From Moniliophthora roreri (Eukaryota > Basidiomycota > Agaricomycetes > Agaricales > Marasmiaceae): a stretch of 64,000 bases of DNA. A program made the position numbers and the translations under genes. Below the pieces are notes generated by a model. That model was given only the letters and a program-made list of their open reading frames with translations. It ran no database searches and had not been told where the DNA came from. Of the stretch, positions 939-28,802 are shown piece after piece; position 1 is the first letter of the stretch; each line of letters opens with the position of its first letter. The DNA lies in assembly GCA_001466705.2 (NCBI GenBank), contig LATX02000201.1:124001-188000 (forward strand). Direction: 5' to 3'.

Positions 939-1971
939 ATGTCACCAAAGGCCACGAGCGAAAAGCAAGTATCCCAGGATACCGAACTCGTTGTTATTCT
1001 AAACAAGTTGGAAGAGGCGTCCAGTCAGACTCAGTCGTCTTTACGGAGGAGTGCTCAATTGGCACTAGGTATCTACTACCGTAGCCCCCAGGTACTCTCA
1101 CTTCTACACACTTCTCTTCAGGCTCTGAACCAGAACTTGCATGTAGCTTCCAGCATTCAAGGCACTGGCGCGAGAATCTTGTGAAGCTGTATTCACTGTC
1201 CTTGTAGCCCAAGGTAGAGTCGATGACGAAACATTGGCTGCTTCGTCAAAGGATTTCCGATACAGTAATAAGGTTCACCATTTGCAGGAGTACGTTGTTT
1301 GTCTCCACATCTTTGACGTGTACACTAATTCCTTGCTATAGCAAGCTTCAAGAAATTGATACTTTTGCCACAACATTCGCCTCCCGTAGCCGTCTGGCAA
1401 CATTCTTCCGTGGCTTCAGTGATACCTCTAGGATAAATGACTATCGTAAATTCACGCAGGATTTCATTCTCGACGGAGATTTCCGCCCCAAGGTAAGCAA
1501 TTAATTGGGAACGAGAAATCAGATACTGAAAACTTATTTAGTGCCCACCTATCAAGGAGAAGAAGTGGAATAAGCACAAATTCTCGTCGAATATCGACGA
1601 TGGTGCTATGACTCGTCAGTCTGCAATTCTGTCCAATCGCTCCAAGCTCTCAACTGCTCGTCGAACATGATAGCGCAGCTACACCTACCAGCACACGGAC
1701 ACTCCCTTTTGGTCGCCATCCAAATAACTCGTTGCCCGCAATTCCGACAGTGATATTTGTCGACAAACTGGTCTATGCACCAACCTATCACAAAAGCGAA
1801 ACAAACATAACAATCATGAAACATAGCGGAAACACAACTGTATATGAAACCATCAATTCTCACAACTTCAGTTACTCAGCTAGTTCTTCACGAAATGGAA
1901 ACACAACCGACAACGAATCCTTCGATTCTTACAGCCACAGTCATTCGACCAGTCATTCACAACATCTTTAG
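939..1971 (+). CDS. MLKL/HeLo-like helical-bundle protein with GNT-repeat tail (pair A, long member)
   Basis: Five exons, 939-1091, 1147-1272, 1346-1492, 1542-1614 and 1679-1971, give a 263-residue protein. The third exon uses an AAG acceptor, the weakest junction of the model. Residues 1-145 are amphipathic helices that align segment by segment with the 14722-15721 protein. The style is that of the N-terminal four-helix domain of MLKL-like proteins and agaricomycete NLRs and kinases (family judgement from memory, not searched). The tail, 167-263, is rich in Ser, Asn, His and Thr and holds two copies of a G-N-T-T motif 23 residues apart (near 217 and 240), each followed by Asp/Glu, an aliphatic or aromatic residue and Asn/Asp-Ser. 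The tail shares HPNNS and GNT blocks with the 14722-15721 protein. The gene is convergent with 2061-2982, with 89 bp between the stops. A role in membrane-directed cell death or allorecognition is inference. Confidence 0.6.
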
Positions 1972-2060
1972 CGTGGCCTTTAGGAGGGTGACGGGAGGGT
2001 GTCCGCGGAGGTCCAGGCGTTAGGCCTCGATTAGTTGATGTTAACCCCCGTAGTAAAGAG

Positions 2061-2982
2061 TTAGGCCTCAGGCGCTTGCGGATTAGGATGTTGTAAACCT
2101 AAGATGTATCAGATATAATCATGATGTAACGACTTTTAATGATTAACGCCTTTACATACCTTCGCCGTCGTCTTGAATGGACTTTGACGCTTGACTGATC
2201 AAAGCGTTCATAAAGCCATTGATGCTTAGCTGATTGCTGGGATCCTGAACAGGAAACTCGGCATGCCGTCCTCGGGATGAATGTATGACTGCCAAAAAGG
2301 CGCATCCCTGAATCACGTCTGGACTAGGAAACTAGAGGTATTCAGGGCCAGTCCTCAGCTGAAATGCGCGAGAATTTGGAACATGAAGCTCAAACCTACG
2401 TCGAAAAGGGCAATACTTTGATAGAGAGCTCGACTGTAGCGCTTTATACGCTTTGAATCGCGCAATAGTATCCCGAATAATCGGAACCGGCGACTTTGAC
2501 CTTCGATGAATCCATTTATCTCCTCGAGCAATCTGGAGCAAGAAATGAAGATATAAGTAAATGACTCCTTGAGATCAGTGGCTGCGCCGCTTACGCATGG
2601 AGGTCCTTAGCTCGATTCCTCAATTGAGTGCCCCAATCCGCTCTATTCGTTTGACTTGTCGGGTTAACATCAATCTCGATGAAGGTGCGAATCACGAGAT
2701 ACACAATTTCAGAAACTTCGTTGGCCAGTTTCTTTAAAGCGCGTTTATGATGCGGACATTTCTGCAACAAGTTCATTATCAGATCGCCACCGGAACAAAT
2801 GACCAACTCCGTACCTGGACTCCTTTATTAATTTGGATGGCCAGGTTGCAAAGCTGTTGACCAGAGAAAGTGACACTGGAGTTGCCTTTGGAAAAATGCT
2901 GTAGCTCCTCGGCGATAATGTCGTGTACGCCGGGAGGAGATGAGGTGGTACTTGAGGAACTGGAGGATGGGGTTGAGGACAT
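2061..2982 (-). CDS. Helical-bundle protein, MLKL NTD-like (pair A, short member)
   Basis: Five exons, 2815-2982, 2595-2761, 2396-2532, 2160-2318 and 2061-2098, sum to 669 nt (222 residues); all phases close. The ATG at 2982 starts a Ser/Thr-rich leader of about 18 residues, followed by helices. Exon 2 begins KCPHHKRALKKLANEVSEIV, a charged amphipathic helix in the style of MLKL-like N-terminal bundles. Exon 3 carries LLEEINGFIEGQSRR, matching an equivalent helix in the 13747-14557 protein. Its closest relative here is that protein: exon borders, helix order and the motif INGFMNALIS near the C-terminus (RVYMRGLISS there) correspond. It lacks the Asn/Ser/Thr-rich tail of the neighbour it faces. 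It may be a partner, regulator or independent paralogue; the function is unknown. Confidence 0.6.
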
Positions 2983-5672
2983 TCTGGGAAGAAAAATGAG
3001 GGGAAGCGAAGGAAATTGGGTATTGAGGGCGATGAGCACTCTTAAATATTATATCTTTGTGAAGATGATAGATCTTGCCCCGACAGGAGTTACGTGACTA
3101 ATGGCAGTCCGCCCTTACAAGATAGGCGCTGAAATCGGTTATTTGGGAATGTCGAGAATAAATTGATATCTGAAAGCTGGAATTATCGTGGCTGGTCATG
3201 TTTCAGAATCACGGCACCAATCATTGCAGTGCGTTTCCCAGAAAAAAAATAAATAAATCAAAGCGCAACAGCTCCTGGAAAAGTTCATACACAATGCGAC
3301 CATGCTCACCTGTACCTCTGTTTAATAGAAGTCGTTACACCGTTTAGTACGTCGTTCATGTAAAGGGCGTCTCAAAGGGCCGAAGTGCTATTGACTTCTT
3401 AAACGTCATCACCACAGGAGCTGCGGCGGAAATAGATTGGCACATTCATTTGCGTTCCGGCAACCTGTACTAGCTTTGGCCAATCTGATACAACTGGAGT
3501 TCCCTGCATGCCGCACACACCACGTACACGAAAGCCAGCAAAATTCAGGTCAAATTCCCTCGTACCATCTAGAGGAAGCTGTAAGCAGGGTAGAACCTAC
3601 GACAAGAACGTCAAAATTACCTGGGAATGTGACTATGCATCGCACGAGAAAGTCGGTGGTGGGTCGGTGCCGTTCAGTTTATATTGAATTGAATTAGCTG
3701 TAGTAAGCCTTCAAGTATCTTGACGCTCAGGGTGCCGAGATTCCATACTGGGGCTGTGGAATGCGATCAAACCGACAAGAGTCTAACGAGACGTTTACGC
3801 GTTGTGAGAATCGCGGTAAATTAGGGCCGTTGTGATAGATTATCATTCATAGCAACCCGGCGGGCCCGTTCGGCATCCAAATAGACGTCCGATCCATGGG
3901 TACTGCAAAGACATTGTCAAGGAAAAATGCTTCAGGCTTGGTCAAATGCGAACCTTTGAAAGGAGAAATTTGAGATCTTCAAGTGTCTCTGCATGATGCA
4001 GCTTTACCAAAGCAGTGACTTATCGTCAAGGGGTGCAGGACCTAAATTTCTGGTCCGGGGTGGGGGATCCGAACTTTGCTAAAAAAATTTTTTGACCTCA
4101 CCCAAATCATGCCTCTGACAGGCTTTTTTTGGGCTTTGGGACCTCCCAAAATTGACATATTCACTTCATTTTTTGAATTTCACCCATAGTCCAAAGGGTT
4201 TCAGGACAACAGGAGGTCAGTATCAACACGCATATGGGAGAAGGTGAGTGACATTAATGATGTTGAGCCTGGAAAATGACTTACCTTTTTCGGATATGTC
4301 CGCGGGGATAACATACCAAATAAGGCAGGAAGGGGGTGGGGGTGCCACCCCCACTTGACCTTAAAATTTTTTTCGACCTCGTATACTTATCAAGTTTTTG
4401 GACCCCCCTTGCTTATCGTAACAAGGAGAGTTGCTCCGCGCGAAATGTTCAATGTTTCAGCGCTGAACACAAGGTATAAATAAATCTGGGAGAAAGAGAG
4501 ATATTAATGTAGAAAAGCATCAAGAAAAGATCCCAAGGCGCACCAGGAGGTGGAGTTGCAAAAGAATGTAGTCAGGGCTCGAAGCAAGTAATTGGTCATG
4601 GGAGTAATGACGCAACAGGCGCTGGGAGGTGCACAGCCACGCAGGGTTCTTTTCAAACGTCCAGGATTACGATGATGCTTTGCCTTGACGTGATGATGCA
4701 TGCTCAAAATGTCACTTTTGGAAGGGTACGCTCCTCAGGTGCATGGCCACGTTTTTTAATCGAGCGAATTCTGAGCACAGGTACTAACAGCAACCGTAGT
4801 ATGCTGTCTACCATTATCACCGTGGTTTTCTTTGGACTAGATTCTCACCTCCGGGAAAGTTTGGGCGCTATGGATTCGTCATCGGCGCTCCAGGAAGCTC
4901 TGTAAAGGAAAAGATCGGGTGCTGGTTAGCTTGTGAGTGCATCGCCATCCCTCTGACTACGAGATTCGCATATCTAGGGATGAAGAGCCTAGAGGTCTTA
5001 GAACCTTGGCTTTCGACTCGACCACCAGCCAAGATGTACGATATTCTGCTCAGTTTTAGTCACATTACTATGACAGCGCGACATTTGGACTGGTGATGTT
5101 CCCGTACAGTCTAGTTGATGGTATCTGATTCCGTGTTCTTCTATAGAACGCAAGGTTACCATTATCTTGAATGAACCTGTTTCTAGGTATGTAACGGATC
5201 TTTGTAGTTTCGGGCTCTGGATACTGACTTTCTCTATTTAGACCAGTTGAGCTTGAGGCTTGGAATACTATCGCATTCAGGACATGGGATCTGAAGATCC
5301 AACCTGTCACTGTGGTGGTTATTTTCGACTCAATCTTCTCCATCAAAAAGGCAGGAACGTTCGGGTGCTATCGATTTGTCATGTGCATTTTTGGACTCGC
5401 AAAGGCAGATCAGCAGAAGGTGTTACAATTCAATGCCGATATCATATGTTGGCCCTTCGGGTATACCCGACACTCCACGAAGCGCTACCACTTACCTACA
5501 TAGTGTTCAGGCATTTTGGTATCGGCGGGATTACGGTCGTGAACCTTGTTCCCATTCAAGATCTAAAAACGAAGGAACAAGAGGCCAGCTGGGGAACTGT
5601 TTAGTATAAAGGGACGTGTATTCACGGCGAAGCAAACAAACAAAAAAAAGAAATTGCACCAATCTTTTTATC
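2983..5672. other. Gene-poor interval, 2.7 kb
   Basis: No gene could be supported on either strand. Near 4055-4170 and 4325-4405 there are A/T runs and a G/C palindrome (GGGGGTG...CACCCCC at 4331-4353). Open frames around 5260-5600 are AT-poor and lack domain signal, and could be relics. The composition looks like old intergenic or repeat-derived DNA. Confidence 0.4.
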
Positions 5673-5775
5673 GCTGGGAGCAGGATTTGAACCTACGCGG
5701 TGAAACACCAAGTGATATTGACTCAGCATAAGGGCTAATTCAAATCACTCGCCTTAACGACTCGGCCATCCCAGC
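5673..5775 (-). tRNA. tRNA-Ser(UGA) with 22-nt intron
   Basis: Read on the minus strand, a 7-bp acceptor stem (GCTGGGA with TCCCAGC), D arm, T arm (GGTTCAAATCC) and long variable arm (TTGGTGTTTCACCG) fold as a serine tRNA. The anticodon is TGA, with the intron placed after position 37. Without the intron it is 81 nt. It is almost identical to the tRNA at 8320-8426, but the two introns differ in sequence and length. Together the two form an inverted repeat around URC1. Confidence 0.93.
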
Positions 5776-5977
5776 ATCAACACGTAGCTCACTACATGAT
5801 ATCAAGTGTCATATCGTGTCCGACATGCTATTATTACGTCCACGGAACATGTGTGCGGACAAGACTCTGTACTGCCCCCTCTTTCTCTTTCTTCCTTCTT
5901 CCACAAGGTATGGCCCACAATGTAACACCCGTAATCGATGGTCATTGATTGATTCAACACTACAGCAATCAGCAACG

Positions 5978-8186
5978 ATGGCAGATCAAACAATCTTGAC
6001 ACAAATCTTGGAAGAACTAAAGGCGCTCAAACTTCAACAGCAGGCCTTGGAAGGAAAGGTGAGCAGTCTTTCTAACGTGGACGTCGTTGATGACGATGAG
6101 CTTGTACCATCCATCAATGCCAACAACGACAAACTCGGATCTTATCCGCGTACTAACCAACCTCGACACGTAGCTCTCTTCCCTAACAAGCACACCATCC
6201 ACACCCACAAGTCAACCAATCCCAATCCCAATACCGAGATCATCATCCATCGAATCCAGCCCAGCAACCACCACCCGATCTTTCGAATCAACCTCTCTCG
6301 CAACAACACTTCCTTCTTCGCCTCCTTCAGTCAGCACAGTTCAACGCTCCACCTCTGCTACGCCATCAAAGGACAAGGATCAAGCCAGAGAAAAGACACT
6401 TTACCCATCCAGAGTCCTACTAACCACCTATCCACCTGCACCCAACTCCCTCGCTTCCCAATCCGCATTCCCACTCGTCTGGGGTGCCCCATCGGCTCTC
6501 GAACGCGGACCTGTCATTTGTTCCCGTCTTCCGTCATCCATCAAACGCCGTAATGCCATCGGCGCACATAGTGGTAGTTACTCCATCTACCGCGCTCTAG
6601 CTATTGCGATGGGAAACCTCGATCCTTCGTACAAGCCAGATCTGAGAGATACGGAACCTCCAGCTGGGATTGATATCCCTCCTCAACCGAGTTGGTTCGT
6701 AGATGGTGGGAGGAAGATTGTTAGTTTTGATCCGTGGGGACATGTGGTGCAGAAGGAATTCAAGTCGTGCGTACAATCATACGCCTCTTACTCTTGCTTT
6801 CGTGGTGTTAAAAGAGTTACACAGGTTGATGGCACCGAAGGAAGAAGACGGCCAAGATCTCGATATCCGACCTTCCATCGCTGTCACGCGTGCGCATATC
6901 AAGCTAAGCGAATTGGATGAGGCGGTTAGGAGGGGTGAGATTGAGATTGATGGCAAGGTACGTACGCCTACCTTTCCCCTTGCACCAAACTGACACACAA
7001 TAGATCGTCCTCAAAACCGCACCAATGAAAACCGAGACCGGCGAAATCGATACCACAAAAGACAGTGGTGTCGAAGTAGCTGTGAGTAAAGCGGCTGTAG
7101 AACCTGTTTGGTGGTTGCCAGGTGTTGCGGAGAGGTTTGGGATGTACGTTCGACTGACTGTCTCTTTGCGTTTACATTTTTTCATTTCTGACTGTGTGTG
7201 TTTTGGTATAGCTCTGAAACTCTTCTCCGACGTTCACTGTTTGAAGATACGGGAGGAATGTACCCCGAGTTGATTACGAGACCTGATATCAAGGTGTGTG
7301 TCTCCGCCCGGCCTCCCTTTTTGCATTTCTCGTCGGCTGACGCAGGATAGGTCTTCCTCCCTCCAATTGGAAACTTTACAGTTTACATCTTTGGTAAAGT
7401 CGAAGATGTAAGAGACGAAAGTAAAGTTTTGACGTTGAGAGTTCATGATGAGTGTACGCCTCCTTTTTCGTTTCTTCATCGACCCACGACGTGAGCTAAC
7501 CCACCCCGCTTCTTCGCAGGCAACGGCTCCGACGTCTTTGGATCCGACATTTGCACATGTAAACCTTACCTCGTTTACGCAATCGAAGAATGTATACGTA
7601 CAGCACAAAAAGGTGGTGTAGGTGTTGTTGTGTACTTTAGGAAGGAAGGAAGGGCGTTGGGGGAGGTTACCAAGTGCGTCTTGCTTTCTCTCTCTCTTGG
7701 GGGTTACCAACGCGTCATCATTCACAGATACCTCGTATACAACCTCCGAAAACGACACGGCGATCGCGCAGATCGTTACTTCAAATCTACGGAATTGATC
7801 GCTGGAGTCAAGGATATGAGGTTCCAAGCGCTCATGCCGGATGTCTTGCATTGGTTGGGTGTCAAAAAGGTCTGTGGTGCCTTTGCTTCTTTCCCTCTTT
7901 TTTTTTTTTTTTTTTTTTGCTTGGATAATTAACTAACGCGCACACCCCACCGTGACCCCAGATCGACAACATGGTATCCATGTCCGACATGAAATACGAC
8001 GCAATCGTAGGAAGTGGAATCCCCATTTTAAAGAGATATGATATCCCGGAACATCTCATCCCACCCGACTCGCGGGTAGAAATCGATGCCAAGATTGCTG
8101 CGGGGTATTTTACGTCTGGAAAGAAACTTACAGAGGCGGATTTGGTTAGGACTGTTGGGAGGACTTGGGAGGAGTCGGAGCATTGA
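5978..8186 (+). CDS. URC1: URC1-type GTP cyclohydrolase II-like protein (uracil catabolism)
   Basis: Nine exons, 5978-6058, 6174-6766, 6825-6957, 7004-7143, 7212-7293, 7351-7453, 7520-7673, 7728-7869 and 7962-8186, sum to 1653 nt (550 residues) with all phases closing. The first intron has a TACTAAC branch site. The C-terminal half resembles GTP cyclohydrolase II (RibA). The zinc-ligand pattern HDEC-x10-CTC is present, followed by VVYFRKEGRALGEVTKYLVY, which matches the RibA segment around its catalytic Arg. The long N-terminal extension, and the MRFQALMPDVLHWLG and MKYDAI blocks, distinguish fungal URC1 from riboflavin-pathway RibA. In yeasts, URC1 acts in the non-canonical URC pathway that releases nitrogen from uracil. 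Residues near 28-135 are a low-complexity Ser/Thr/Pro region and may be disordered. The last intron is unusually long (92 bp) because of a 21-T run. Confidence 0.9.
7898..7918. repeat. Poly-T tract (21 T) inside URC1 intron 8
   Basis: An uninterrupted run of 21 T lies between the 5' splice site and the ACTAAC branch site of the last URC1 intron. It is a likely length-variable microsatellite; no retroelement boundary is visible. Confidence 0.9.
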
Positions 8187-8319
8187 GCCAGGTGCTTGGT
8201 TTTTTGTGGAATGTATTTTGTAGTTGTCGGAACGTTAACGGAATAAGTAGAGGAATGGTACTGTTAAACACATGACTCAATCAATGGATGTGGTTTATAT
8301 AAAATTAGCATGTGATAGC

Positions 8320-8426
8320 GCTGGGATGGCCGAGTCGTTAAGGCGAGTGATTTGAATTTGCAAGTTGGTGTGCTTAGTCAATATCACTTGGTGTTTCACC
8401 GCGTAGGTTCAAATCCTGCTCCCAGC
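8320..8426 (+). tRNA. tRNA-Ser(UGA) with 26-nt intron
   Basis: Same mature sequence layout as the tRNA at 5673-5775 (81 nt without intron; anticodon TGA; serine-type long variable arm), on the opposite strand. The intron after position 37 is 26 nt and differs from the 22-nt intron of the other copy, while both end in TTAGTCAAT or GAGTCAAT. Mature regions appear identical by eye. Confidence 0.93.
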
Positions 8427-10365
8427 GGTTGCGACGGTGTTTCATCGAACCTTTTTGGTTAATAATTTTTCGTTCATCGCTGAGGCATATTTACAGAATC
8501 ATGTATCTAACTATAAGCATAGACTTTATATCATTGCTTCCATCCTCGCGTTGCCTTGGACCAGAAAAACTAGGTTATTTTGTCGAGGGTCTGATTCCAG
8601 AGCTGAACAGAAGAGTTCAATGCCGGGGCTATGTATCTGGTGGTGAAGAATGAGAAGAAACGATGGTAGATTACAGCGTTGTGAGGATATACCAGAACGC
8701 ATGTTCTTGGGATACACAAGACCATAGACGTCGAGAAGATATACATGATGTCGCTGTTGCGCCAGCAGGCAGATTGAAGATGATCATGGAAGCGAATCAT
8801 CCATGTTTGCCGTTCCAGTTGTCTTTGGCCGAGAACTGCCCTTGATTGTTGTACTGCAGGCCGAGAGTTAGATACAAGAGTCGAAAATATAAAGGAGAGT
8901 CAAACATACAGAGCGAAGGCATTACCAGAACACATAGCGATGCAGAATCTCGGTGCAAACATCGAACCTTTGGACTGAACACTAGGTCCAGATCCGGTTG
9001 AGGTTCAACGTTCGGTTTACCTGGATGTCGTAGCTGAGGAAAGAGCAATTCGCGTTCACAGGGGTAACAGAACATGATGACAGGGAAAAACACACCATTC
9101 CAGAATCTCATCACCGTCCTGATCAGTTATCTTCGAAGCGGCCAGAATACCCCAATACCCTTTCGCTAACACTTCCCGCCCAGCAGAGAACCCAAAAGTG
9201 CCCCCAAATTCCAAGCAAGAGTCCATTATTGAGACTTTGTGCTCATGGGGCTCGGTCCAGGTTCGATGTTCACGAAAGAGTAGTCGCTGAACCACACCGA
9301 ACCAAACTTGTGCATCATCACGGGAGCGTACCTTCACGCACGAGACCATCGGCCTCGAAGAGATCCGGGCATACCTGATAACCTGGGATCATGAGCTTCA
9401 GCCAGCAGGCTCGTCTACAGAGGCAATGGGATGCTTACATCGCAGCAGCTATACTGGCCTCCAAAGGTACCGCAGGTTGATGATCATATTTCTAGGTGTT
9501 CAATTGACCACCATAGCCTAGGTTATTGGTTTCCGCATCCCATACCCAAAGCGGGTACGCAGAGCTGGAAAGTGGTTGTGGTCGGTAATAATGTCGCTGA
9601 AGCTAACTGGTAGTGAGAGTGAGCCTTCGGGAGACGATTTGGAACGCATGCACCTCTCTACTTCAGCTAAGGAGCCCAGCCCTTCTTCCAGTCCCAATTT
9701 GTTCTCATTCCTTCACTGGACGGAATCATGTATTGGAGGCGAACCGCGTAAAAGCATTTGCAGACCACATCCTGAGCCCCGACAAAGGAAAGCCCATTTG
9801 TGCGTGCCTTTCCTTCTCTTCTGGGAGCTGACGGCGGGGCCAGGTCAGACTTTCGGGGTGGATACTGTATGGATAATTGACCTCAGATCGTGTACGACGG
9901 ATGCAAGTAACAATGCACTCACCGGTCGTGTCCGCCCAACCCAATTCGTAAATAGTGACCTTCTCTCTTCCCGCAATTTGCCTCACTATCTCGACTAATT
10001 TTGCACCAAGATTGGTGTCTGAAATTCGCTTCTTGAAGGGCGCTCTAAGTCGTTGGTCGCGGGCAACGGGTCGCGTCAAAGTTGAACATCATTGTTAGGA
10101 ACAAAAATGGGCTGTGGCTGTGTCCATACCTTCCTAATTTCTACCGTCACGGTCCCGCTCTCCACCTCTCGAGCGGTGTCGGTATGTCCCAGAAACACTT
10201 ATGTGGGGTCAAGCGGTTAACCATGCGTCGTCTCTAACCTTGATCACTGTTGTAGTACTTCCGTCCTTAGCTCCGTTGATTGCAGCAGTAATTTGTGAGA
10301 CTGTTGTGTAGGCTCTTCGCAAGCTAAAGCTAACCTAGGTTTATCCAAAGGAGAAGACGAACTCG
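8427..10365. other. Uncharacterised interval with coding-like fragments
   Basis: No gene model could be closed. On the minus strand, around 9726-10079, an open frame containing FKKRISDTNLGAKLVEIVRQ and VTIYELGWADTTG can be spliced (GTGAGT donor near 9920, CAG acceptor near 9824) to a short C-terminal exon ending near 9726. It looks coding but matches no family I recognise. A second minus-strand stretch (8800-9350) is open in parts and broken by stops. These may be one or two degraded or fast-evolving genes. Confidence 0.3.
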
Positions 10366-11490
10366 ATGGGGCTCCCACGACTGCCTCAAGAGATTTGCGA
10401 CCACGTTATCCATTACTGCCAGGACGATACGGAAACGCTTTCCGCCTGTTCGCTAGTTTCCAGAGCCTGGGTATTCAAATCCCGATCTGTCCTTTTTCCG
10501 GAATCATTCATTTTTACCTTTGGTGATCATATGCGAAAGACTACTAAAGACTTTCACGCTCTTGTGAAATCGCCATGTTGCACCATTACTCCTTCCGCCC
10601 GGCACATTGCGTTTGTCGGAAGGGATAACATCGATGACCTCGCTATTCTTGAAGACGCCATTCTCCACCTCGAATCATCACGATTAGGAAGACTCAAAGA
10701 AATAAAATTCTTCGGAATGTTTCCCTCGCAGCTAATGAACCACCCAAACCTCATCTCGTCTCTTTCTCGCTGCATTACATCTTTGACACTCGACTATTCC
10801 ATCTGGTATCATAACCACGACCTCAGTCCAAATTTCATTCTCCAGATCATGCATCTGCTTGGCCCGACCCTAGAATCGTTCTGTCTATCTCTATTCAGTC
10901 CTTCCGGTAATTGGCAAGCACAGACGCTATCACCTTTTCCCAAGAAGGCACGTATGGCACGCCTTCGATACCTTTTTCTCGATGCCGCATTCGACTATAT
11001 ACTCCCTTTGTTTCTTATCCCAGGTCTCGTCGAGTTCCCTCGATTGTCATCTTTGAACACGACGATGGTCTATCTTGAAGACGATGAGCATTACCTACAA
11101 GACTTCCTCGATAGCCATTGCAGAGGCAGGCTTGAGGAACTGTCTTTTTCTGTCCAACCTTATCATGCTTATGATGTCCACCTCCCAGGTATGTCGTTAA
11201 ACAATGTGCTCGGTTATTGCTAACACAACTTTCTTCCAGCGATTAACCTCAGTCGGCTGGACACTCTGAGCACTATTCGTTTCAACTTCAGGCCTTACGG
11301 GCCTCAGCACGAAGGATATCACAGGAAGTTCGTCGACATTGCCTCGAGTGTTCCGTGCTCGTCGCAACGAGCACTCAATGTCTTTGTGAAAGACGAAAGC
11401 TTTCGGTTGCCTTCATCGGCTGAAATACTAAAGGATCGCGTGAAATGGTATGTTGGAAAGGATGAAGTGGAGCTGGATCAAAGCAAATAG
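10366..11490 (+). CDS. F-box-like protein 1
   Basis: Two exons, 10366-11188 and 11240-11490 (357 residues), joined in phase 1 by a 51-bp intron. The N-terminus LPQEICDHVI...SACSLVSRAW is an F-box-like motif (Leu-Pro, then Cys-x-Leu-Val and Trp) expected to bind Skp1 in an SCF ubiquitin ligase. The rest has leucine-rich, beta/alpha-like spacing (SRCITSLTLD, GLVEFPRLSSL) without a named substrate domain. The final exon starts with the AINLS block shared by all four F-box genes in this window, and the intron is at the same place in all four. The substrate is unknown. Confidence 0.85.
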
Positions 11491-12414
11491 AACCTTCATA
11501 TCAGGTGAGCGTAAAGCCCTATCATTCTATGTATCAAGGCGCTTAATCCGTCGTTAACTTGAACATTCATTTTCTCGGATTTTGGAATACAGAAGCTGAA
11601 AACGGGTGGCTTCGCTGAGATAAGATTCAGTGCCTGCATGTAGTGCGATTCTCTTATGATTGTGCATTTTTTTCTGGGACTCAAATCAATTGGATGTTCG
11701 ACATGATTGTCCAGACCAACGACTGTGCATTTGGTAGACAGTTGCTTCCGGTATCTTCGTATGAGATTAGTGACCAAATGGATTCCAGAATTCACGGTTC
11801 GAAAGTGCCTTCGACGCCACCGGATGCAGATGAAACGTGCTGGCTCCAGGTAACTGTCTCCTGAGGTTCCTACTGACAGGCCTCTTACCCGTATGTTTTC
11901 AGTTATTCTCGTATGTATTCATCATGAAATTGACTGAAGGTGTTAGATCCATTAGGTCCAAAATCCGATCAAAGGTATGTTCGCACAGTCTCCATTCGCT
12001 GACATCGGAGGGCAGACCCAGAGATTAGGGTATGAACTACCTGAATCATCCTTCGCCCTCAACTCGTTTGCTCTCACCGCATGATTCCACATAGCAAGTG
12101 GCGATTAAACAGAACTGCGGTCCACGTCCGTGGATTGATTTCCAGTCAATCAACTGCAACATTCTAGAACTTTATTGAGCACCAAGTAGACGTCTCTTCT
12201 TCGGTGATTCAGTAGGACTGTAAGGCGATGCTCCTTGGTGCTCTTTGGAGATATGGCGCTCGAAGTCGCACGACGACTCTCATTAGGATGTCGGCTCCGC
12301 ATAATACCCATGCTCTTTACATGACATACAGCACTACTATGAACTGTAAAGAACAAATTGGGACACACCACTCGGAGCATGGAGCAGTATTCCTGATTAC
12401 GAGTCCGAGTTCAC

Positions 12415-12622
12415 GAGGATTCCTTATACGGAAGGTATAAGTGGGGGGGAAAGTTGTGGCCTGATAGACGTCGACAGATCATTTTTGTTTGGTTCGTCTC
12501 GTCATTCCGCTTCGGCCCCCTTGTCATTAGCACTGTCTGGCCTTAAAGAGCTTCCGCAAAACCATATCACCAGAAACGGACTCGTAAATACCATCGGACC
12601 CTGATGGCCCACTGCGGCGAGT
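12415..12622 (+). repeat. Tandem segmental repeat, copy 1
   Basis: This copy shares collinear blocks with 13200-13419: CGGAAGG-TATAAG, GGGAAAGTTG, TCTCGTCA, then the closing block ACCCTGATGGCCCACTGCGG-CGAGT (second copy ACCCTGACAGCCCACTCCGG-CAAGT). Similarity is interrupted by substitutions and small indels, so the duplication is old. Nothing coding was recognised in it. Confidence 0.6.
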
Positions 12623-13199
12623 GAGGACTGGCCTATCTCCTGCTACGAGACAAAGTCTCAGCTCTCCGCAGAGGTGTTTTCTTTCATGTTGAAGTTTCGA
12701 GTCCAACCTTCTCGGGCTTCGACGCCACAAACAGCTAGCCGAAGCACTGTATCTTGCAAGAGATCAAGGTCGAACAATTGTTGTATATGCACTCAAGTAC
12801 GTCCATCTTCACTGTCTAATAGAAGCATGTCAAGGTCCGATCTTAATGATGGTCAATTTGTGGTCAATCCTGTTATTGCCGTATCATGAGCTGTGAGTAA
12901 ATTCATAACCACTGAAGATCCATCAATGATTTCTGTGACAGAATTCAGATTCAGGTCAGCATCAACCAAGCGGAGAGGAGCATCCACTCCATATGATGCT
13001 GGGAACGTGAACTTGGTTGACCCCGCCCCCTGCTATTACAGGCTGTTACACGTTCAAGATTTTCGTGGTCTCATGCCGCCGAGCTAGCGCAGGACAGATA
13101 TTGGATTATTGGACGAGCAAGTTGGAGTATGGAGACCTCGGCTTTGCGCGTTGACCAGAGATATTACGAGGTAATGAGGAATCGTCTTACCACCCAAAT

Positions 13200-13419
13200 T
13201 TTTCCTTTTACCGTGACGGAAGGCATAAGATGGGTGGGAAAGTTGGTCTGTTGATAGGTTATTCTCTTTGGTTGTTTCCTGTCTCGTCACTCGACTTCAT
13301 TTTTATCGCCGTTAGCCCAGGAAAATTATGACTTCGAAGAACTACACACCAGGATGACACCTGCAGACTAATCGGAACTCGTACCTGCCATCAGACCCTG
13401 ACAGCCCACTCCGGCAAGT
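13200..13419 (+). repeat. Tandem segmental repeat, copy 2
   Basis: Second copy of the segment at 12415-12622, same orientation, about 790 bp downstream. The copy ends about 330 bp before the start of the helical-bundle gene at 13747, so it may once have belonged to a duplicated promoter or gene 5' region. Confidence 0.6.
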
Positions 13420-13746
13420 CTTTACTCAACTAGTGTCGTGATGGTTTTTCCTTCTGGCAGTATCATCCAAAGGATTTTGTCGGACAGAAGTGATCAAACC
13501 GCCGTACTTCTATTCATCTGTCCTTATGGGCTTTTACTCCCTACAGCTACTGCCAGTCTGTCATTGCCGTAATAGACTGAATAGCCTCATTTCTCGGTTT
13601 CCCGCCGTCGCTACCACCAATTCTGGCGTCTCTTCTGAAATTTGTGACCACACCCGGCGCCGTTTCCAGTTGCGGTCTTATTCACTTCAATCCGATAAAA
13701 GGCTCCATTACTTCCACCTAACCATGACCAAACACATCCCTCAATC

Positions 13747-14557
13747 ATGACTTCCGACGCTCTTCACACTCCTCCCACTATTTACGACTTCATACTGCAA
13801 GAGCTGAAGGAACACCAGGAGAAGAGCGAAATTCCTTACATTCGAAACATATGCAGCGCTGCAATTCAAATTTATGATAGCTTAGAAGTGGGTTATATTA
13901 TTGGTTTCCTTGAGCTTCTCTGCCACATCTAACATATCCCTCGCTGCTTTACAGAAATGTCAAACCTACGATAAAGATGCTACGAAGCCGCTAGCAGAAA
14001 GGGCGTACGAGTTGGTGTACCTTCTGGCATGCACTATCAGCCACAATGCGGACTCGGTCAGTGGAAGGCCTGGATTGCCTGCGGACGAACGACACGTCTT
14101 CTTGTGCAGACACCTCCAACGTGAAGGTGACGAGCTTTTGCAGTAAGAAATTTAGCTTTCTGAGAACGTTACCGATGGCTGACTTGGCTTGACATCTGTA
14201 TCTTTTGATCTTACAGAGTACTCACGCAAATAAAGGTGTTCATCGAGCGTCTGTCGAATCGTTATACAATCATGATCTGGCTCACGACTCGGTCCTCTAA
14301 CTCAAGGGAAATCTATGCTTTTATGGCAAGACTCTACAAAGCACTTGAAAGTTTCAAGGTAGGTAACATTAGCATATGGTCGTTGCAGTCACGGATGATG
14401 ATTTCGACAGCCTCCTGATGAAACCGTGATCCGAGAGTGTGTAGCAATGCTGGCCACCGTACATGCAATTCGACGTTCCTTCCCTCCCGAAGAAGAAACT
14501 GAACCGTGGAATGTCCGCGTGTACATGCGTGGATTGATCAGTAGTTTGGCCACCTAA
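13747..14557 (+). CDS. Helical-bundle protein, MLKL NTD-like (pair B, short member)
   Basis: Four exons, 13747-13887, 13955-14142, 14217-14358 and 14411-14557, sum to 618 nt (205 residues); phases close. It is predicted all-helical. The opening is IYDFILQELKEHQEKS. Exon 2 begins KCQTYDKDATKPLAERAYEL, aligned with the KCPHHKRALKK helix of the 2061-2982 protein. Exon 3 is QIKVFIERLSNRY. The C-terminus has VIRECVAMLATVHAIRR and YMRGLISSLAT, again matching the 2061-2982 protein. No enzymatic motif, signal peptide or transmembrane segment is visible. The gene is convergent with 14722-15721 (164 bp between stops), repeating the arrangement at 0.9-3.0 kb. Confidence 0.65.
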
Positions 14558-14721
14558 GAACTATAAGTTATACCATTTGGAACTTCGTCTAACTACCTAT
14601 CCCAGCACGTCAGCTGTTGCAATGGTATATAGACGGTGGCAGACTTGTTCCAGAAATATATCCGTTGTCCTGCAACATTCTTCGTACGCTAATAGATGCT
14701 TTCCGTGAACTGTACCATCCT

Positions 14722-15721
14722 TCAGACCATCGCATCAAGACTGACCCTTTCATCCCAATCAGCCAAAAAATCTTGACTCGGACAAAACGAAGAATTATAG
14801 GAATCAAATGCCTGATTGATGCTCGTGTTTCCGCAGTGTGTTAGACTGGTTGAATGCGTTTCATTTGTCGTATAATTCGGCTTGTAGAAAAAGTTACGAA
14901 TCATGACCCGTGCCCCCGTCGCAGACGGTAGAACTGGTGATGAGTTGTTTGGATGTTTGCCAAGTGGCGAGTTTCGTGAGTTGGAATGTCCAACCGCGAG
15001 ACTGTCATTTTTGACTGGAATCTTGAGCATCCACGGTATTTTTTCAAGAAAGCTGGACTGGTGGTATTGTGTATTATTCTTCCTGGAGCTGAGATTGGTA
15101 GTGGACGATGATCGGGTCAATTTCGGCTTGCCATCACCGTTTGTAGAACGCTACGGAAAGGGGATTAGAAGTGGGGAAAATCGGGGCTTACACCGACGCA
15201 CCCTTGGGCTAAAATCACGGTCGACAACATAGTATTGCATAAATATGCGATATCTCTCGATTGCGGTCAGGACAGCCGTGTCAATTCGCCTCAGAGGCAA
15301 AATTCCTGAAAGGAGAACGAGTTGTTCGAGGTTTCTGTTCGATTTTTGGATAAGTATAAAATGAATTGTCGATGGGGATCTAATTACCTTTTCAATGCAT
15401 TGAGCTTGTGACTGACCTGCTCCAACATCGTCACATCGAGGCAAGTGACAGCGAAAACAGCCTCGCAGGTTTCCTGTATGAGCTCGCCAAAAGTGGGAAT
15501 TTCGACCTATGATAAACTTATGAGTTTACCAAAGCAGCATAGAGAGGAACAGCGAGTACCTCTTGGATCGGAAACTCCCGCACGCGCAATGCCAAAGCAG
15601 CGATTTCTCGTAAGGGATTTTCAACGTCTCCCGAAACCTTGGTCAATTTTTTCAAAATGACCATTGTGTCAGGATCAACGGATTCCAGTTTATCGTTCTT
15701 GGGGACGGAATATATGACCAT
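14722..15721 (-). CDS. MLKL/HeLo-like helical-bundle protein with GNT-motif tail (pair B, long member)
   Basis: Four exons, 15560-15721, 15388-15506, 15202-15334 and 14722-15150, sum to 843 nt (280 residues); phases close exactly. Residues 1-138 are helical and align with residues 1-142 of the 939-1971 protein: exon 1 carries VILKKLTKVSG against VILNKLEEASS, exon 2 CEAVFAV against CEAVFTV, and exon 3 ends VVDRDFSPR against ILDGDFRPK. The 142-residue tail is encoded by one exon, is rich in Asn, Ser and Thr, and shares GKHPNNSSP and a HCGNTSINQAFDSYN motif with the partner gene's GRHPNNSLP and HSGNTTVYETINSHN. It has one clear GNT motif, whereas 939-1971 has two. Cell-death or prion-like signalling is inference. 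Confidence 0.65.
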
Positions 15722-19070: not shown

Positions 19071-19531
19071 TCCGAGAATATATGTGGTTGGTGGTGGAAG
19101 CACAAAGGCGTGTGTTTATTTGGTACATTATTTAGACATCCGAACAAGCGCTCGAGGGACTTTTGCCAGTTAAAAAAGCTACAAGTCCCTCTAGGACTAC
19201 CGCTGATCGTTTACCTTTTCAAATAGATGCACGTTGGCGTACCCAGGTGGTAGCTAGCTCCGAACATAGAGGAAATGAACTAAACAAAGCGTGAACAGTT
19301 GGTGAACAGTCTCGGTACGAAGCCAGAATCGTGAGAATAACTCGAGCGCCCGCCTCGATCAGTGTCCGAGATTCCACTGATTCGGATGGCCCGATTGATT
19401 CCCAGAACAGCAGTTCCTTGCATTAAGGGGTCAAATTGGGTTCACCAACATCAAAAATTCACTATGGATTGATTTTGCAAAGCTACGGAGAGTACAACTC
19501 TTGGGGATACGTGAAAAAAAATAGAGCGTAT

Positions 19532-19627
19532 GCCCCCTGGCTGGATTGAACAACCGACCTTTGCATTGATGAGGAATCATAAATGATCACATACAAGTGC
19601 AACGCACTACCACTGTGCTAAGAGGGC
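19532..19627 (-). tRNA. tRNA-Thr(UGU) with intron
   Basis: On the minus strand GCCCTCT pairs with AGGGGGC (acceptor stem). The D arm is TAGCACAGTGGTAGTGCG, the anticodon arm TTGCA-CTTGTA with anticodon TGT, and the 3' anticodon strand TGCAA. The T arm GGTTGTTCAATCC gives a loop close to the consensus. About 25 nt after position 37 (TGTGATCATTTATG...) do not fit a tRNA arm and form an intron; the remaining length is normal. The body resembles fungal threonine tRNAs. Confidence 0.85.
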
Positions 19628-20579
19628 CTGTGGGCAAGCAACCAAGTCAATACATCAGGGGTGACAACTCTATAGGTATTGGGGTCAGCCTTACGGATGC
19701 AAGCTGGCAGACCCGCCGCTGTCACTAAGACCCAAATTTGAATGAAGGGCAGCGTTGGTTGGATAATGGTGATATATAATGATGTGGCGATTAGGCGAAG
19801 GCATGGCTTTCGCGCTGTCGTTTTGATCTACCGGTCTGACGTGTCAGTTGGTCCTCGGGGAAGCGAGGTGAGTTCAGACCTTCCAGTTTCATGGACATTA
19901 GGGGATGAAGACCAGTGAAATGACATATTGATATAGCCAATCATAAGCACTGGACGCCTCCTAGAGCAATAAAAAAATTTATACAGTTAAGCCGCTTCGC
20001 GGAAAAAGACACAATGCACGTACTTTTTTTAATCAAGTTACACCAGCTACAGAGTGTTGTTCTGTAGCCGTATTCCCGTTGTTTCACGACCTCCGGTTCG
20101 TCTTGCAAGACGGGAGCCCACAGAAGCCTCCTCGACCCAGGTTAACCAATTTACATTCCAGTCCTAAACAAACTGTGAGGGTCCGATTCATCTGTCGCCT
20201 CCAATTAGAGCCTGTCTTTGAGTGAAGCATGGTTAAATGAGTCTTGCAGGAGTAAAGCCTGAAAAGATACGTACCGTATCACAATCCATGCCAACACATC
20301 CCTGTCAATTCCACTCCTTTCAGAACGACTGAGGTGAGAACAAGTTCCCTTTTTCGCGATAGAGGTCCTGGAAGAGCCAAGGCCGACAAGGCGCAATTTG
20401 GATGATGGTGGACGTCGAGAAAAGAGTTAAGAGTTGTGGCTATGCACCTTGCATGATGTATTCCCCACGATCTGTTCCTTGGGCTCCCTTTCTCTGATGC
20501 CCACGAGCACTAGTATTGAAGTGAGTACTCGATCTCTTCTGGAACCGGAACCAGGCTGAGGTATGATTTAGCGTCCGAA
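19628..20579. other. Intergenic, no gene seen
   Basis: No coding region or RNA was recognised between the tRNA-Thr and F-box gene 2. Short A/T runs occur near 19970 and 20025. Confidence 0.45.
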
Positions 20580-21729
20580 ATGGCTACCGCAACGGACCCA
20601 AGGCTTCCACCTGAACTCTGCGATCGCATCATCGACCAATATCAGGACGACAAGCGGGCGCTCTCTGCTTGTTCGCTCGTATGCAAGTCCTGGCTGCCCA
20701 GATCACGCTCGATACTCTTCTCAGCAACTCCAGATCTCTCGGAACATAGCGTCCAAGTACTTGACGCTTTGCTGGTGTCCCCACATTGCACTATCATACC
20801 CTTTGTTCGGTGCATACGTTTTCTTCCGAAGTGGAGCGCGCGAGAGCGGGACTCCTTTCTAGATGCCTTTGAGAGAAGCATCACACGTATCCAGACAGCC
20901 GGTGGAAACCTGAACAAAGTGGAAGTTGCCATGGTATACCCTTCAGAGCTTGTGGGCAGGCCGAATCTCCTTCTACACCTTTCCCAAAGCGTTACATCTT
21001 TATCCTTCATGCACTTTGGCTTCCCCATGAGGATCGACACAAAGTCGATCCTCGAGATTATGGGGGTATTCAGCGAGACGCTGGAGAGCCTCAATCTATA
21101 TCTCGAAATCCCAGGCATCATCACTGGTTCCCCTTTGGAGCCAGCCCCGCCTTTCGCCCAAAAAGTCTGCATGTCACAGCTTCGACGACTTGCATTGTCG
21201 TGTCCGTGGAATGAAGTCCTTCCATGGTTTCTTCTCCCCGGTCAAGTGGAGTTTCCTCGACTGACGTACCTGTCAGTTTGGATGTTGTTCCCAATTCCTG
21301 ATAGCCGTGATCTCCTGCAAAGTTTCCTGGACGAGAAATGCGCAAATACTGTCGAAGATTTAGAACTTCCCTGCTGCTATTGTTATATTCCAGGTTTGTC
21401 GACGTATACCTCGAGTCATGATAGCCTCTGCTAATCTCATCGCGCTTATAGCCATCGATCTCAGCCAATTCACTTTACGCTCCATAATATTCAAAGGGAA
21501 GAACGCAGGGCAGGTCTCGGAAGCTGATTGTAAGAAGATCGTTGATATTGTCTCGACGGCATCTTTCGCCGCCCGAAAGCTCACTGTCGTTGTGACCGAT
21601 GACGGGTTCAAATTACCTTCGTCTAACAAAGATCTTGATCATGTCGAGTGGCTTATAGGATCAAATTTAAGTGAAACAGACGAATTTGAGGACATGGTTC
21701 TGTCTGTTTACAGGGCATGTTTTTCATGA
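20580..21729 (+). CDS. F-box-like protein 2
   Basis: Two exons, 20580-21393 and 21452-21729 (363 residues), with the intron in phase 1 at the position conserved in all four local F-box genes. The N-terminal motif LPPELCDRIIDQYQDDKRAL then CSLVCKSWLPRSRSILF is a clear F-box. The C-terminal exon starts AIDLSQFTLRSI. The middle is leucine-rich with LTYLSV-type strands. It is convergent with F-box gene 3, with 88 bp between stops. Substrate unknown. Confidence 0.87.
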
Positions 21730-21817: not shown

Positions 21818-22960
21818 CTACTGTTCTCTATGCTCCCAATCCCATTCATTTTCAAACCACTTCACGCAATCTTTCAGCTTCTCTGCAGAGCGAGGCAGCT
21901 TGAATTTGTGATCCGGGACAAAGACCTTCAGTTTTCGCCCCGAGTCGCAAGCAGGAACCGTCGAAACTATCGTTACGAGTTTCTCAAACTCACTGCTGTT
22001 TTGAGCGGCCCGTCCGGAAAACTTGACTGAGCAAAGGACAGTAAAATTGCTGAGGTCTATGGCTGCAGGAATCAAGAGGATGTGTTGAGTAACAGCAACA
22101 CTTGTAAGATGGAGGTAAATATACTAACCTGGAATCGACTGGTACATGAACGGAAATACTAGATCCTCCACCGTTTTGGCACACAGGGCATCCAAAAACT
22201 GTTGTGCAAGATAATGTTCTCCGAGCAACCAACTGTGCATCGACAATTCCAATTTCTTCAACGCCGGAAACTCGACAAGACCAGGAAATATGAACCACGG
22301 AAGGACTTTGTTCCATAGTACCGCTACTTCAAGGTGACGAAGGCGTACCATATGCAACTTTTTCCGAGACGGAGCCCTAAAATGCAGCAGTTGGCGATGA
22401 AAAATGGGGGGTGTGTCAAGGTGCAATTGCAGACTCTCCAGGGTATCACTAAAGTGATTGAGGAGAGATAAGATCTCCGCGCCGTTGAGTTCGGTCGTAT
22501 AGTAGGATATAGATAGAGAAGTGATGCAGCGGGCGAGGGAATAGAGGAGTGCGGGGTGTTGGAGCAGATAACCAGGACTTGGAAAGCCGCTGATCATCAT
22601 GTCCTTGATGATTGACTTCTGCTCCTCGACGATATTTACGATTTTCCGAAGGTTATGCAGATATAGCTCCACTTGTCCCCTGGGCCCTTCACTAGTGCTC
22701 AGGCAAATGCGCTGAACAAAAGGTAAGAGGGTACAACGCGGGTTCTCCAAAAGTAGCCGAAAGTCGTTTATGTCCTCGGGCTTCAACTTGAACAGACTGG
22801 AGCTTGGGAATAGCAGGACACGGCATCGTGGTACCCACGACCTACACACGAGCGAGGAGGAACATAATGCCTCTTTATCATCGTAGATACAGTCAATGAC
22901 TGCATCACAAATTTCAGGAGGGAGTCTCGCAGTAGGCTCGGGATGTGTATGAGGATCCAT
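21818..22960 (-). CDS. F-box-like protein 3
   Basis: Two exons, 22129-22960 and 21818-22062 (358 residues). The start ATG at 22960 is followed by LPPEICDAVIDCIYDDKEAL and CSSSLVCRSWVPRCRVLLF, the F-box motif. Exon 2 begins AIDLSNFTVL, parallel to F-box gene 2. The closeness of the two convergent genes and the shared intron suggest inverted tandem duplication. Probable Skp1-binding SCF adaptor; no target domain identified. Confidence 0.87.
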
Positions 22961-23956
22961 CTGGACTCGAGACTAGGCGTTGAATCGTTGATGGTGGGTG
23001 CAAGAACCAAACTGAATCAAGTTACCTGATGGATCGGATTAATCCGACCACATTATTAGATGACCCCCCGTAACGTCTCAGAAGGATTATCCGACATTTC
23101 CCCGCATGAACCCACCGTCCTCTCACAGCATTTTCGGAAAACCTTGTCCAAACGCCTCTCTCGAATATAGGAAAAAATTCAACGGGAGACTTCCCGTAAG
23201 GTTGCTTCGCCTAAAATCAAGCAATTAATCGTCTCAGAAGGTTTATCCGAGGTTTTCCCGCCGTTCTCTTAATGCGACTTGAAATAAGAAATTCATTCTA
23301 AATCTATTTTTATCTTTCTGGATCCATCCCTAAATGCGTTTTCGCCTCTCATTTCAAATCTCTCTCTCCTTACCCGACCGCTCCTTGCCTCTTTTGACTC
23401 CGGAGGACTGCCAGGCCTTCATCCACGCAAGCACGCCCAAGGCGTTGCGTAGTTTACCTCCTCTATGTCATGAAATCTCTGATTACCAACTCTGTAAGTA
23501 TACTGCACAACAAAATTTAAATGTAAGGGCATACTACCTCACGCCTTGTCTCCAATGCATCCGGAGCTCGCGGTGTTCTTCGGAACTCCAGCCTAGCCAT
23601 TCTTTGAATCCTCTGAGGGCCTTACAGGAATGCCATGGTGAATTAACCATTCATAAAACAATGTGATATTTCTCTCAGAAAGTCGTCAGAATCGACAAAT
23701 GAGAATCAAAACCTTACGGGAAGTCATCCAATAACAATCCGAGGACCTGAATCCGATCCGTTAGGAGTCAGGTTGAAAGCCCTGTAGGGCTCGTTTGCTT
23801 TGTCAGACAAATCCTTGGACAAAATTCCAAAATTCCAAACTCCGGTTCGAAAGTCGGACAAAATACCTTGCGTTAGTGGTGTTTTCGCGTCAAAGCCCTT
23901 CCGGTTATAGGTCCTGCCGTTTTAACTTTTTGGATGTCACCGGTTTTCTTTACCGC

Positions 23957-26494: not shown

Positions 26495-27739
26495 GACTTT
26501 AGGAAGGGACACGAGATTTTGGGTGAGTGGAGAAGAGGTTGTCTATGACACATTTCGATATTCATCACTAGCTCGCGATGTATAGTCTTTGTAAACTTCA
26601 TTTTCAGTATCACGACGAGCAGGATACAGTATGGCACGCACTGTGTTCTCCTTCTCCATGAATGGGTGAAGTGGAAGTCAAGGCTGAGTTGCGAGCGAGG
26701 GGCTTGATGGCTTCCTCAGGAGCATCAATTCGGATGTCCAGATTCCAAGCAGAGCTCCCGTTTCCTCGATATTTTTCTCGATATTGCCGTGAGTTCCATC
26801 TCAGGTTTTGCGCGGTTGGGATGTGCCAGGGAAATCCATATTCCCGCCAAGCACACCCCACGCCCGAAGCTTCTCCAGAAGATAACGAAACATTGGAAAT
26901 TCAAGATTGCGAACCACCCGAGACCTGAATACAACAGGTATGAGAAGTATCTGGGCATTTTTGAGATGTAACAGTCAGAACGTATTTTCCTGAGGAGCAA
27001 TGTAAAGTGTACCCATCGAGCGCGCTCTTCATTGCAGCAATGAAATCATAACACACGAACGACAATATTCCGTCCGCTCCGTGAAGGCCCGGGATTAATT
27101 GGAAAATGCATTGATGGTTGGAGTGAAGAAACGTCACCGACATTCCGAACGTCTTGCCTCTTACCATCACTTGACCACCTGCTCGTCCCCTCGGACTCAT
27201 ACCGCACGCCCACACTGGTAATACCATGTAAGTGATTCGTCTCATTTGGTAATGCCGTTTGTGCTGATTTCTGATAATAGTATAACCAGTAAAGCTACCG
27301 CAACTCGGGCAGAGTGGGAAATGTTGGACATTCGGAGAGAAAATTCGAGAGCCAACCTACATTATGTCCCAAGCAGCAGGGCAAATAGTTATTGGGTCGC
27401 AGTTGGGAAGACGAATGGGGGGAGCTGGAGGAGACTAGGGTGAAGCTGGAGTGGATGCGATATTGGTCTTGGCCGAGTCTGGGCGTTCTCTCTACCACCT
27501 CGACGACGACGGCAGGCGATACCTAAAACTCAGGTCTCAACGAGGGGTTAGCCCACTTATGTGAGTATGCTTATGATTTATCTGAATTTATCTTTGATGT
27601 GGTTGTCAGTTAACGTTGACCCAATGACCGTGGCATTTGACCGGCCCTACATCTTCGCGGGTACCTGGTAAATATTGTCTTTCACCCACCACCATCAACA
27701 TCAGCTCACAGTCCTCTTTCACATTCTCCCCGATTGCTG
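26495..27739. other. Unresolved interval
   Basis: Minus-strand frames between 26600 and 27250 are open for up to about 110 codons but show no domain and no clear junctions. They could be a 5' part of the MYND gene or a separate decayed gene. No other feature was seen. Confidence 0.3.
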
Positions 27740-28802
27740 ATGCATCATAAAACGCCATTTTCATCATCAAAGCTCCCGCCAGAGCTCTGCGACATCATCA
27801 TCGACCACTTGGAGAGTGACTGGACTTCCTTATCAGTTTGCGCCCTCGTATGCAAATCCTGGTTACCGCGTTCCCGTTCGTTGCTTTTCCCAGAATCCTT
27901 CACGTTCAAGCTCCGCCGGAGCAACATCCACAAGTTCCGCACATCACTCGAATCCCCCTACGCCAGCATAACCCCATTCATCCGACGTATCGCCGTATTC
28001 AGCCCATGGATCAAAGACACCGTTCTCTTTGACGAGCTCGAACACGTCGTTCTCCATTTAGTACCCCGTTTAAATGGTATATCATTCACCGCGTACCCGG
28101 ACCAAATTCTTCGCAAACCACAGCTTATACGATGTCTTTCGAGGACGATTACATCGTTTTCTTTGCGATGCGATTCGGGTAGCGTGGACGAGGGACTGGA
28201 TGGTCGGGAGATTCTGCAACTTCTCAAACCATTCAGTGAGCGTTTGGAGAATCTCGAGCTGGAACTTGATACCCTGGGCATATGGCTCGCACAGCCCATT
28301 CAAGCATACGCTCTCTTCCCTCACATGCACCTAAAGCACCTTCGTCGGTTACGCCTGTCGGTCCCGTGGAACAGTATACTCCCGTGGTTTCTCGTTCCGA
28401 ATTTCATGGAGCTTCCGGTGTTGAGCGTGCTTGTGGTTGACATTGGTAACACGCAGACTAGAGCAGGGAGTTATCATTTGCTGCAGGCGTTTTTGGATCG
28501 GTTGTGTTCGAGAACAGTGGAGGAGATGGAGTTTCGGTTTTATTATGGGTCTTTACCTCGTGAGTTTTTGCTTCTCTTGGTCGTGGACGACGTCGCTGAC
28601 CTCTTCTTCGTGTTTAGCTATTGACCTCAGAAATTTTGGATTGCTTCGTTCATTGGTTTTGAAAGGGTGGCATTATGATGATATGGGTATTGAAAATGGG
28701 CGGAGAAGGGTCAACGATATGCTTGCTTCTGTGCCGAAGGAGAGAAAAGTCCATGTTTATGTGAAGGATGAAGTGAAGGTGATTATCAGGCGGAAACATT
28801 AG
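27740..28802 (+). CDS. F-box-like protein 4
   Basis: Two exons, 27740-28559 and 28618-28802 (334 residues). The first in-frame ATG is at 27740. The F-box motif is LPPELCDIIIDHLESDWTSL then CALVCKSWLPRSRSLLF, followed by PESFTFKLRRSN, which is close to F-box gene 1 (PESFIFTFGDH). The intron is at the family position, and exon 2 begins PIDLRNFGLLRS. The C-terminal segment is shorter than in the other three copies. Confidence 0.87.

Follow-up and report, generated by a model that had tools for sequence, protein, structure and literature searches.

The 64,000-nucleotide stretch of the Moniliophthora roreri genome analysed here (the window; C101:124001-188000, where C-numbers are contigs of the 59.4 Mb, 154-contig assembly) carries two convergent pairs of a long gene, L, and a short gene, S, which belong to a set of at least six such L/S cassettes in this genome. 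The L and S proteins are related to each other in sequence, L has a C-terminal tail and S has none like it, and in cassettes 5 and 6 the two genes have diverged jointly under purifying selection. We tentatively propose, at somewhat less than an even chance, that a cassette combines an executor, L, with a tailless partner, S, that restrains L in the fungus's own cell death. Proteins of the BaMLKL type, to which L would belong, are already known (Wojciechowski et al., 2022, PMC9815663; like the other papers cited here by accession, used from excerpts of its text), and M. roreri is named in that paper; the paired L/S cassette appears to be the new element.

A first-pass annotation of this DNA had placed the four genes of the window tail to tail, and all positions and orientations hold (Table 1). 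The exon chains built from the window for L2, S1 and S2 give exactly the NCBI proteins Moror_14590, Moror_14586 and Moror_14589, respectively. The L1 model is the same as NCBI protein Moror_14585 over 156 residues, after which the two diverge: a fourth intron with a weak donor (GTGGAA) takes our model to 273 amino acids, whereas Moror_14585 lacks that intron and stops at 191. Both the fourth intron and the L1 sequence past residue 156 are based on likeness to the L2 tail (E 5.0e-9 over that stretch).

Further members were found by whole-genome searches with single proteins and by applying an exon-3 profile to the DNA around selected loci, the loci examined being those picked by L or S matches. 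In this way nine L genes, eight of them modelled, and six S genes were seen and the surroundings of the six S genes were examined. Every one of these six has a convergent L neighbour at a distance of no more than 940 bp, and the pairs are spread over three contigs; positions and gaps are taken from the gene models, with the end of S1 from the NCBI model. When positions for six S genes were drawn at random within these contig stretches in 20,000 trials, none was paired in 17175, one in 2645, two in 173 and three in 7, while four, five or six paired genes never occurred; these counts are not a probability, because copies that arise by duplication are not independent events. A seventh S gene lies on C102, outside the six examined with their surroundings, and the L6 query gave no L near it.

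Table 1. Genes, last exons and pairs of the L/S cassettes. Positions are those of the window unless a contig is given.
Feature	Position	Strand	Exons	Remarks
L1 (Moror_14585), long gene	939-1971	+	939-1091, 1147-1289, 1342-1492, 1542-1564, 1620-1971	273 amino acids in the model built here
L1, last exon	1620-1971	+		encodes polar C-terminal tail with SETNITIMKHSGN
S1 (Moror_14586), short gene	2061-2982	-	2815-2982, 2595-2761, 2400-2532, 2160-2331, 2061-2098	225 amino acids
S2 (Moror_14589), short gene	13747-14557	+	13747-13887, 13955-14142, 14217-14358, 14411-14557	205 amino acids
L2 (Moror_14590), long gene	14722-15721	-	15560-15721, 15388-15506, 15202-15334, 14722-15150	280 amino acids
L2, last exon	14722-15150	-		encodes polar C-terminal tail with NETHSTSLTHCGN
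Pairs L1/S1, L2/S2, L3/S3	C101			gaps 89, 164, 194 bp
Pairs L5/S5, L6/S6	C149			gaps 285, 187 bp
Pair L7/S7	C87			gap 940 bp, an upper figure (the L7 model covers exons 1-3)
L9	C87:664 kb			exon 3 interrupted by a stop; no model; absent from alignments and trees; counted among the nine L genes

Within each class the window genes resemble each other along almost their full length, as had been stated before: L1 and L2 align with 27% identity over 286 columns (BLASTP, E 4.9e-25) and S1 and S2 with 29% over 208 columns (E 2.5e-19). The shared intron positions were borne out as well, all four genes having introns 1, 2 and 3 in phases 0, 2 and 0. Judged by these alignments, L1 and L2 are paralogues of each other, and so are S1 and S2. 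Pairwise BLASTP gave no significant match between L and S, whereas an hhalign comparison of a profile of six S proteins with a profile of seven L proteins gave a probability of 96.2% (E 2.6e-9), by which the two classes are homologous. In a tree of eight L proteins, six S proteins and one Lyophyllum protein, S forms a single clade (98) that joins the Lyophyllum protein rather than L (95), so S may derive from another MLKL-like branch and not from L; most of the remaining nodes of this tree are weak. The Lyophyllum protein is weakly related to L (E 5.1) and is the only L relative found outside Moniliophthora in protein searches with 7,993, 875 and 2,146 scored candidates; the same searches gave no S relative, and only relatives that share short words could be reached in them. 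A 112-residue fragment of a partial S protein from Moniliophthora perniciosa is 85% identical to S5, which places the origin of the S class, on sequence grounds, before the split of M. roreri and M. perniciosa.

Between cassettes, identity is about 22-56%, and the closest relatives are cassettes 5 and 6. The rates of non-synonymous (dN) and synonymous (dS) substitution are dN 0.51 and dS 1.57 for L5/L6 (dN/dS ~0.32) and dN 0.33 and dS 1.34 for S5/S6 (dN/dS ~0.25), with both dS values approaching saturation. Cassettes 5 and 6 are also sisters in the L tree and in the S tree (98 and 100). The similar dS, the low dN/dS and the sister placement in both trees fit a joint duplication of L and S of these cassettes, with purifying selection on both genes. 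Together with the pairing in six cassettes, these figures support the suggestion of the first-pass annotation that the two proteins act jointly. The similarity matrix of L correlates with that of S (r 0.69), a value as high being reached in 20 of 720 permutations; this comparison, from which the partnerless L4 and L8 were excluded, is driven mostly by the 5/6 pair.

The further claim that the window's second pair is the first one copied in inverted orientation was too specific and had to be rejected. Pair 3, which lies on C101 outside the window and 27 kb upstream, exceeds pair 2 in its similarity to pair 1, both for L (38% vs 31%) and for S (36% vs 29%). Two near-identical, intron-bearing tRNA genes lie inverted between the window cassettes, at 5672-5775 (-) and 8320-8427 (+), and a third tRNA is found downstream of the cassettes at 19531-19627 (-); ARAGORN reported no tRNA. 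It is also unlikely that positions 1-16 kb arose by one recent inverted duplication, since the tRNA arms are ~98% alike around an axis at ~7,050, whereas the cassettes are ~30% alike around an axis at ~8,330.

Structure predictions, which cover L1 and S1, produced models that appear to resemble MLKL and plant CC-R/RPW8-type domains, in agreement with the helical bundles proposed earlier for these genes. In BaMLKLs, h1 is preceded by an additional N-terminal helix, hG, and a short helix, hM, lies between h3 and h4; the CDD model MLKL_NTD was used for them (PMC9815663). Both of our models have a predicted helix at the hG position, at residues 15-29 in L1 and 19-31 in S1, before the MLKL-aligned part, which starts at residues 30-33 and 37-38, respectively. 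A short hM-like helix is predicted at residues 116-121 of L1, while the S1 model, which has low confidence here, shows none. Matches to the L profile and to the S profile also occur in exon 3 of further members of the clusters, for example at C74:855880 (S, 9.7e-7) and C74:855898 (L, 4e-5), and these members are without an MLKL_NTD assignment.

Beyond the bundle, seven L models extend by about 92-144 residues. Judged from their composition by itself, the tails of L1 and L2 appear polar. A pattern [SN]E[TV][NH]...GN is present in L1, L2, L5 and L6 and absent from L3, L4, L7 and L8; the L8 and L9 tails end in the motif MFSxxSxFxxxGGQxNxVxGxQ. S proteins are without an L-like tail, and their last exon encodes a different, poorly predicted stretch. 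A genome search with the L8 tail found 21 places, including L8 and L9, and two of the 19 others lie just upstream of a same-strand NACHT match, on C10 (E 3.8e-4) and C82 (E 0.19); this comparison of tails with NLRs covered the L8/L9-type tail. Among the 115 matches listed for PF24883 (NACHT), a lower bound, none lies on the cassette contigs C101, C149 and C87. In the BaMLKL study, only a few of 500 sequences contained amyloid-motif-like fragments, and neighbouring NLRs never did (PMC9815663). Two M. roreri MCA 2997 sequences noted in the literature are probably L8 and L9.

Based on these features, we suggest that L is a BaMLKL-type helical bundle that would execute the cell's own death by attacking membranes. 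By analogy with the proposal for other BaMLKLs with amyloid-like tails, the C-terminal tail of L might receive the trigger, and the bundle, once freed, would permeabilise membranes. S would bind the bundle of its cognate L and keep it in check, and such restraint would explain the continued linkage and the joint duplication of the two genes. Several results weigh against this reading. At E <= 10, Pfam assigns no family to the spliced models, to the NCBI proteins or to the Lyophyllum relative, and no PDB sequence match to MLKL was obtained. In addition, no S was seen beside L4, L8 and L9, three of the nine L genes, and the existence of unpaired L genes makes it doubtful that S is an essential brake. 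A different type of BaMLKL-like gene is located near the unpaired L4, at C101:104.4 kb (+).

Unpaired L genes also fit a passive co-duplication, in which L and S, without a functional link, would have long been neighbours in a cluster of MLKL-like genes undergoing birth and death; other BaMLKL-like genes in the same clusters stand partnerless. We regard this as unlikely, as all six S genes examined are convergent with an L, on three contigs and at between-cassette identities down to 22-31%. L and S could also be two subunits of a heteromeric membrane-active assembly, in which activity depends on both and S does not act as a brake. Both proteins are homologous, predicted MLKL-type bundles under similar constraint, which would suit such an assembly, but a third of the L genes have no S seen alongside and we consider this explanation quite improbable.

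We give an equally low probability to the possibility that the cassettes are allorecognition loci, in which, once hyphae have fused, L of one haplotype would react to an S (or tail) from another haplotype that does not match it, with the diverged copies forming a repertoire. The narrow distribution and strong divergence of the cassettes are in line with this, and in Podospora het-V an MLKL domain lies beside a linked partner gene (PMC8229728). In addition, S5 (C149:90834-91628, -) differs from Moror_4547 of strain MCA 2997 in 3 of 208 residues, a possible strain polymorphism. However, for L2, S1, S2 and S6 the databases hold identical proteins, WG66_001066 in the case of S6, and M. roreri has been described as clonal and haploid (PMC10468315). 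Finally, a selfish poison-antidote element, with L as poison and S as antidote retained by addiction and not by use to the fungus, would be linked, multicopy and narrowly distributed as the pair is, but it is highly improbable given the L genes without a seen S.

The proposed pairing of an executor with a restraining partner shares features with several known systems. The BaMLKLs appear to have in common with L1 and S1 a predicted four-helix MLKL-like core and hG, and with L also hM (seen in L1) and C-terminal tails, but the excerpts of PMC9815663 treat single proteins and do not mention a tailless second class in convergent cassettes. HET-S/HET-s and NWD2 of Podospora anserina involve a bundle that attacks membranes and has its trigger region at the C-terminus, together with a relative that is not toxic (PMC10197012, PMC8229728); there, however, NWD2 is an adjacent NLR, in contrast to the cassette contigs with their lack of listed NACHT matches, and L1 and S1 have a helix before h1. 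In Podospora het-V (PaMt1, PaMt2), two genes are linked and the executor has an MLKL domain (PMC8229728), but its partner is a methyltransferase and the executor has a TUDOR domain, whereas both cassette genes encode predicted bundles. Vertebrate MLKL and plant NRG1 CC-R domains share the predicted fold of L1 and S1, but without a sequence match at E <= 10, and L and S lack a pseudokinase or NLR part. No paired bundle-gene cassette of this kind was found in titles and abstracts of the open-licence literature, where absence is not absence from print.

A number of other features were seen along the way. Additional MLKL-like exon-3 matches with no S partner seen are located at C101:86.5, C101:104.4, C149:57-74, C87:658-673, C67:1039, C67:1067 and C74:855 kb; several partnerless MLKL-like genes have NNxxxGN-type tails, and those at C101:86.5 and C87:658 kb terminate in a hydrophobic stretch. 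The sole place above the cut-off in a genome search with Pfam MLKL_N (PF22215) is C92:393660-393995 (-), with a NACHT match 8 kb off at C92:385576. In the window, four open frames, at 10339-11220 (+), 20520-21431 (+), 22127-22972 (-) and 27641-28621 (+), have, by eye, a common LPxE[IL]CD start; one of them (22130-22972) matches a Pfam F-box-like model below the cut-off (E 8.4e-4) and the other three have no Pfam match. Fragments of a sugar transporter (PF00083) and of an FAD-binding monooxygenase domain (PF01494) are found at 52928-53401 (-) and 56081-56737 (-), respectively.

How somatic incompatibility works in basidiomycetes has been called completely unknown (PMC8229728). It is conceivable, if rather doubtful, that the cassette is a self-contained death switch of two bundles, a tailed L and a dedicated tailless guard S, which multiplies as a convergent unit and is a candidate basis of somatic self/non-self recognition in basidiomycetes without an NLR next door. 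If S does restrain L, this would show that a relative with the same fold can control an MLKL-type executor. For BaMLKL proteins, for which a known controller is mostly missing, a bundle partner that six cassettes keep next to the executor would then be a concrete and testable one.
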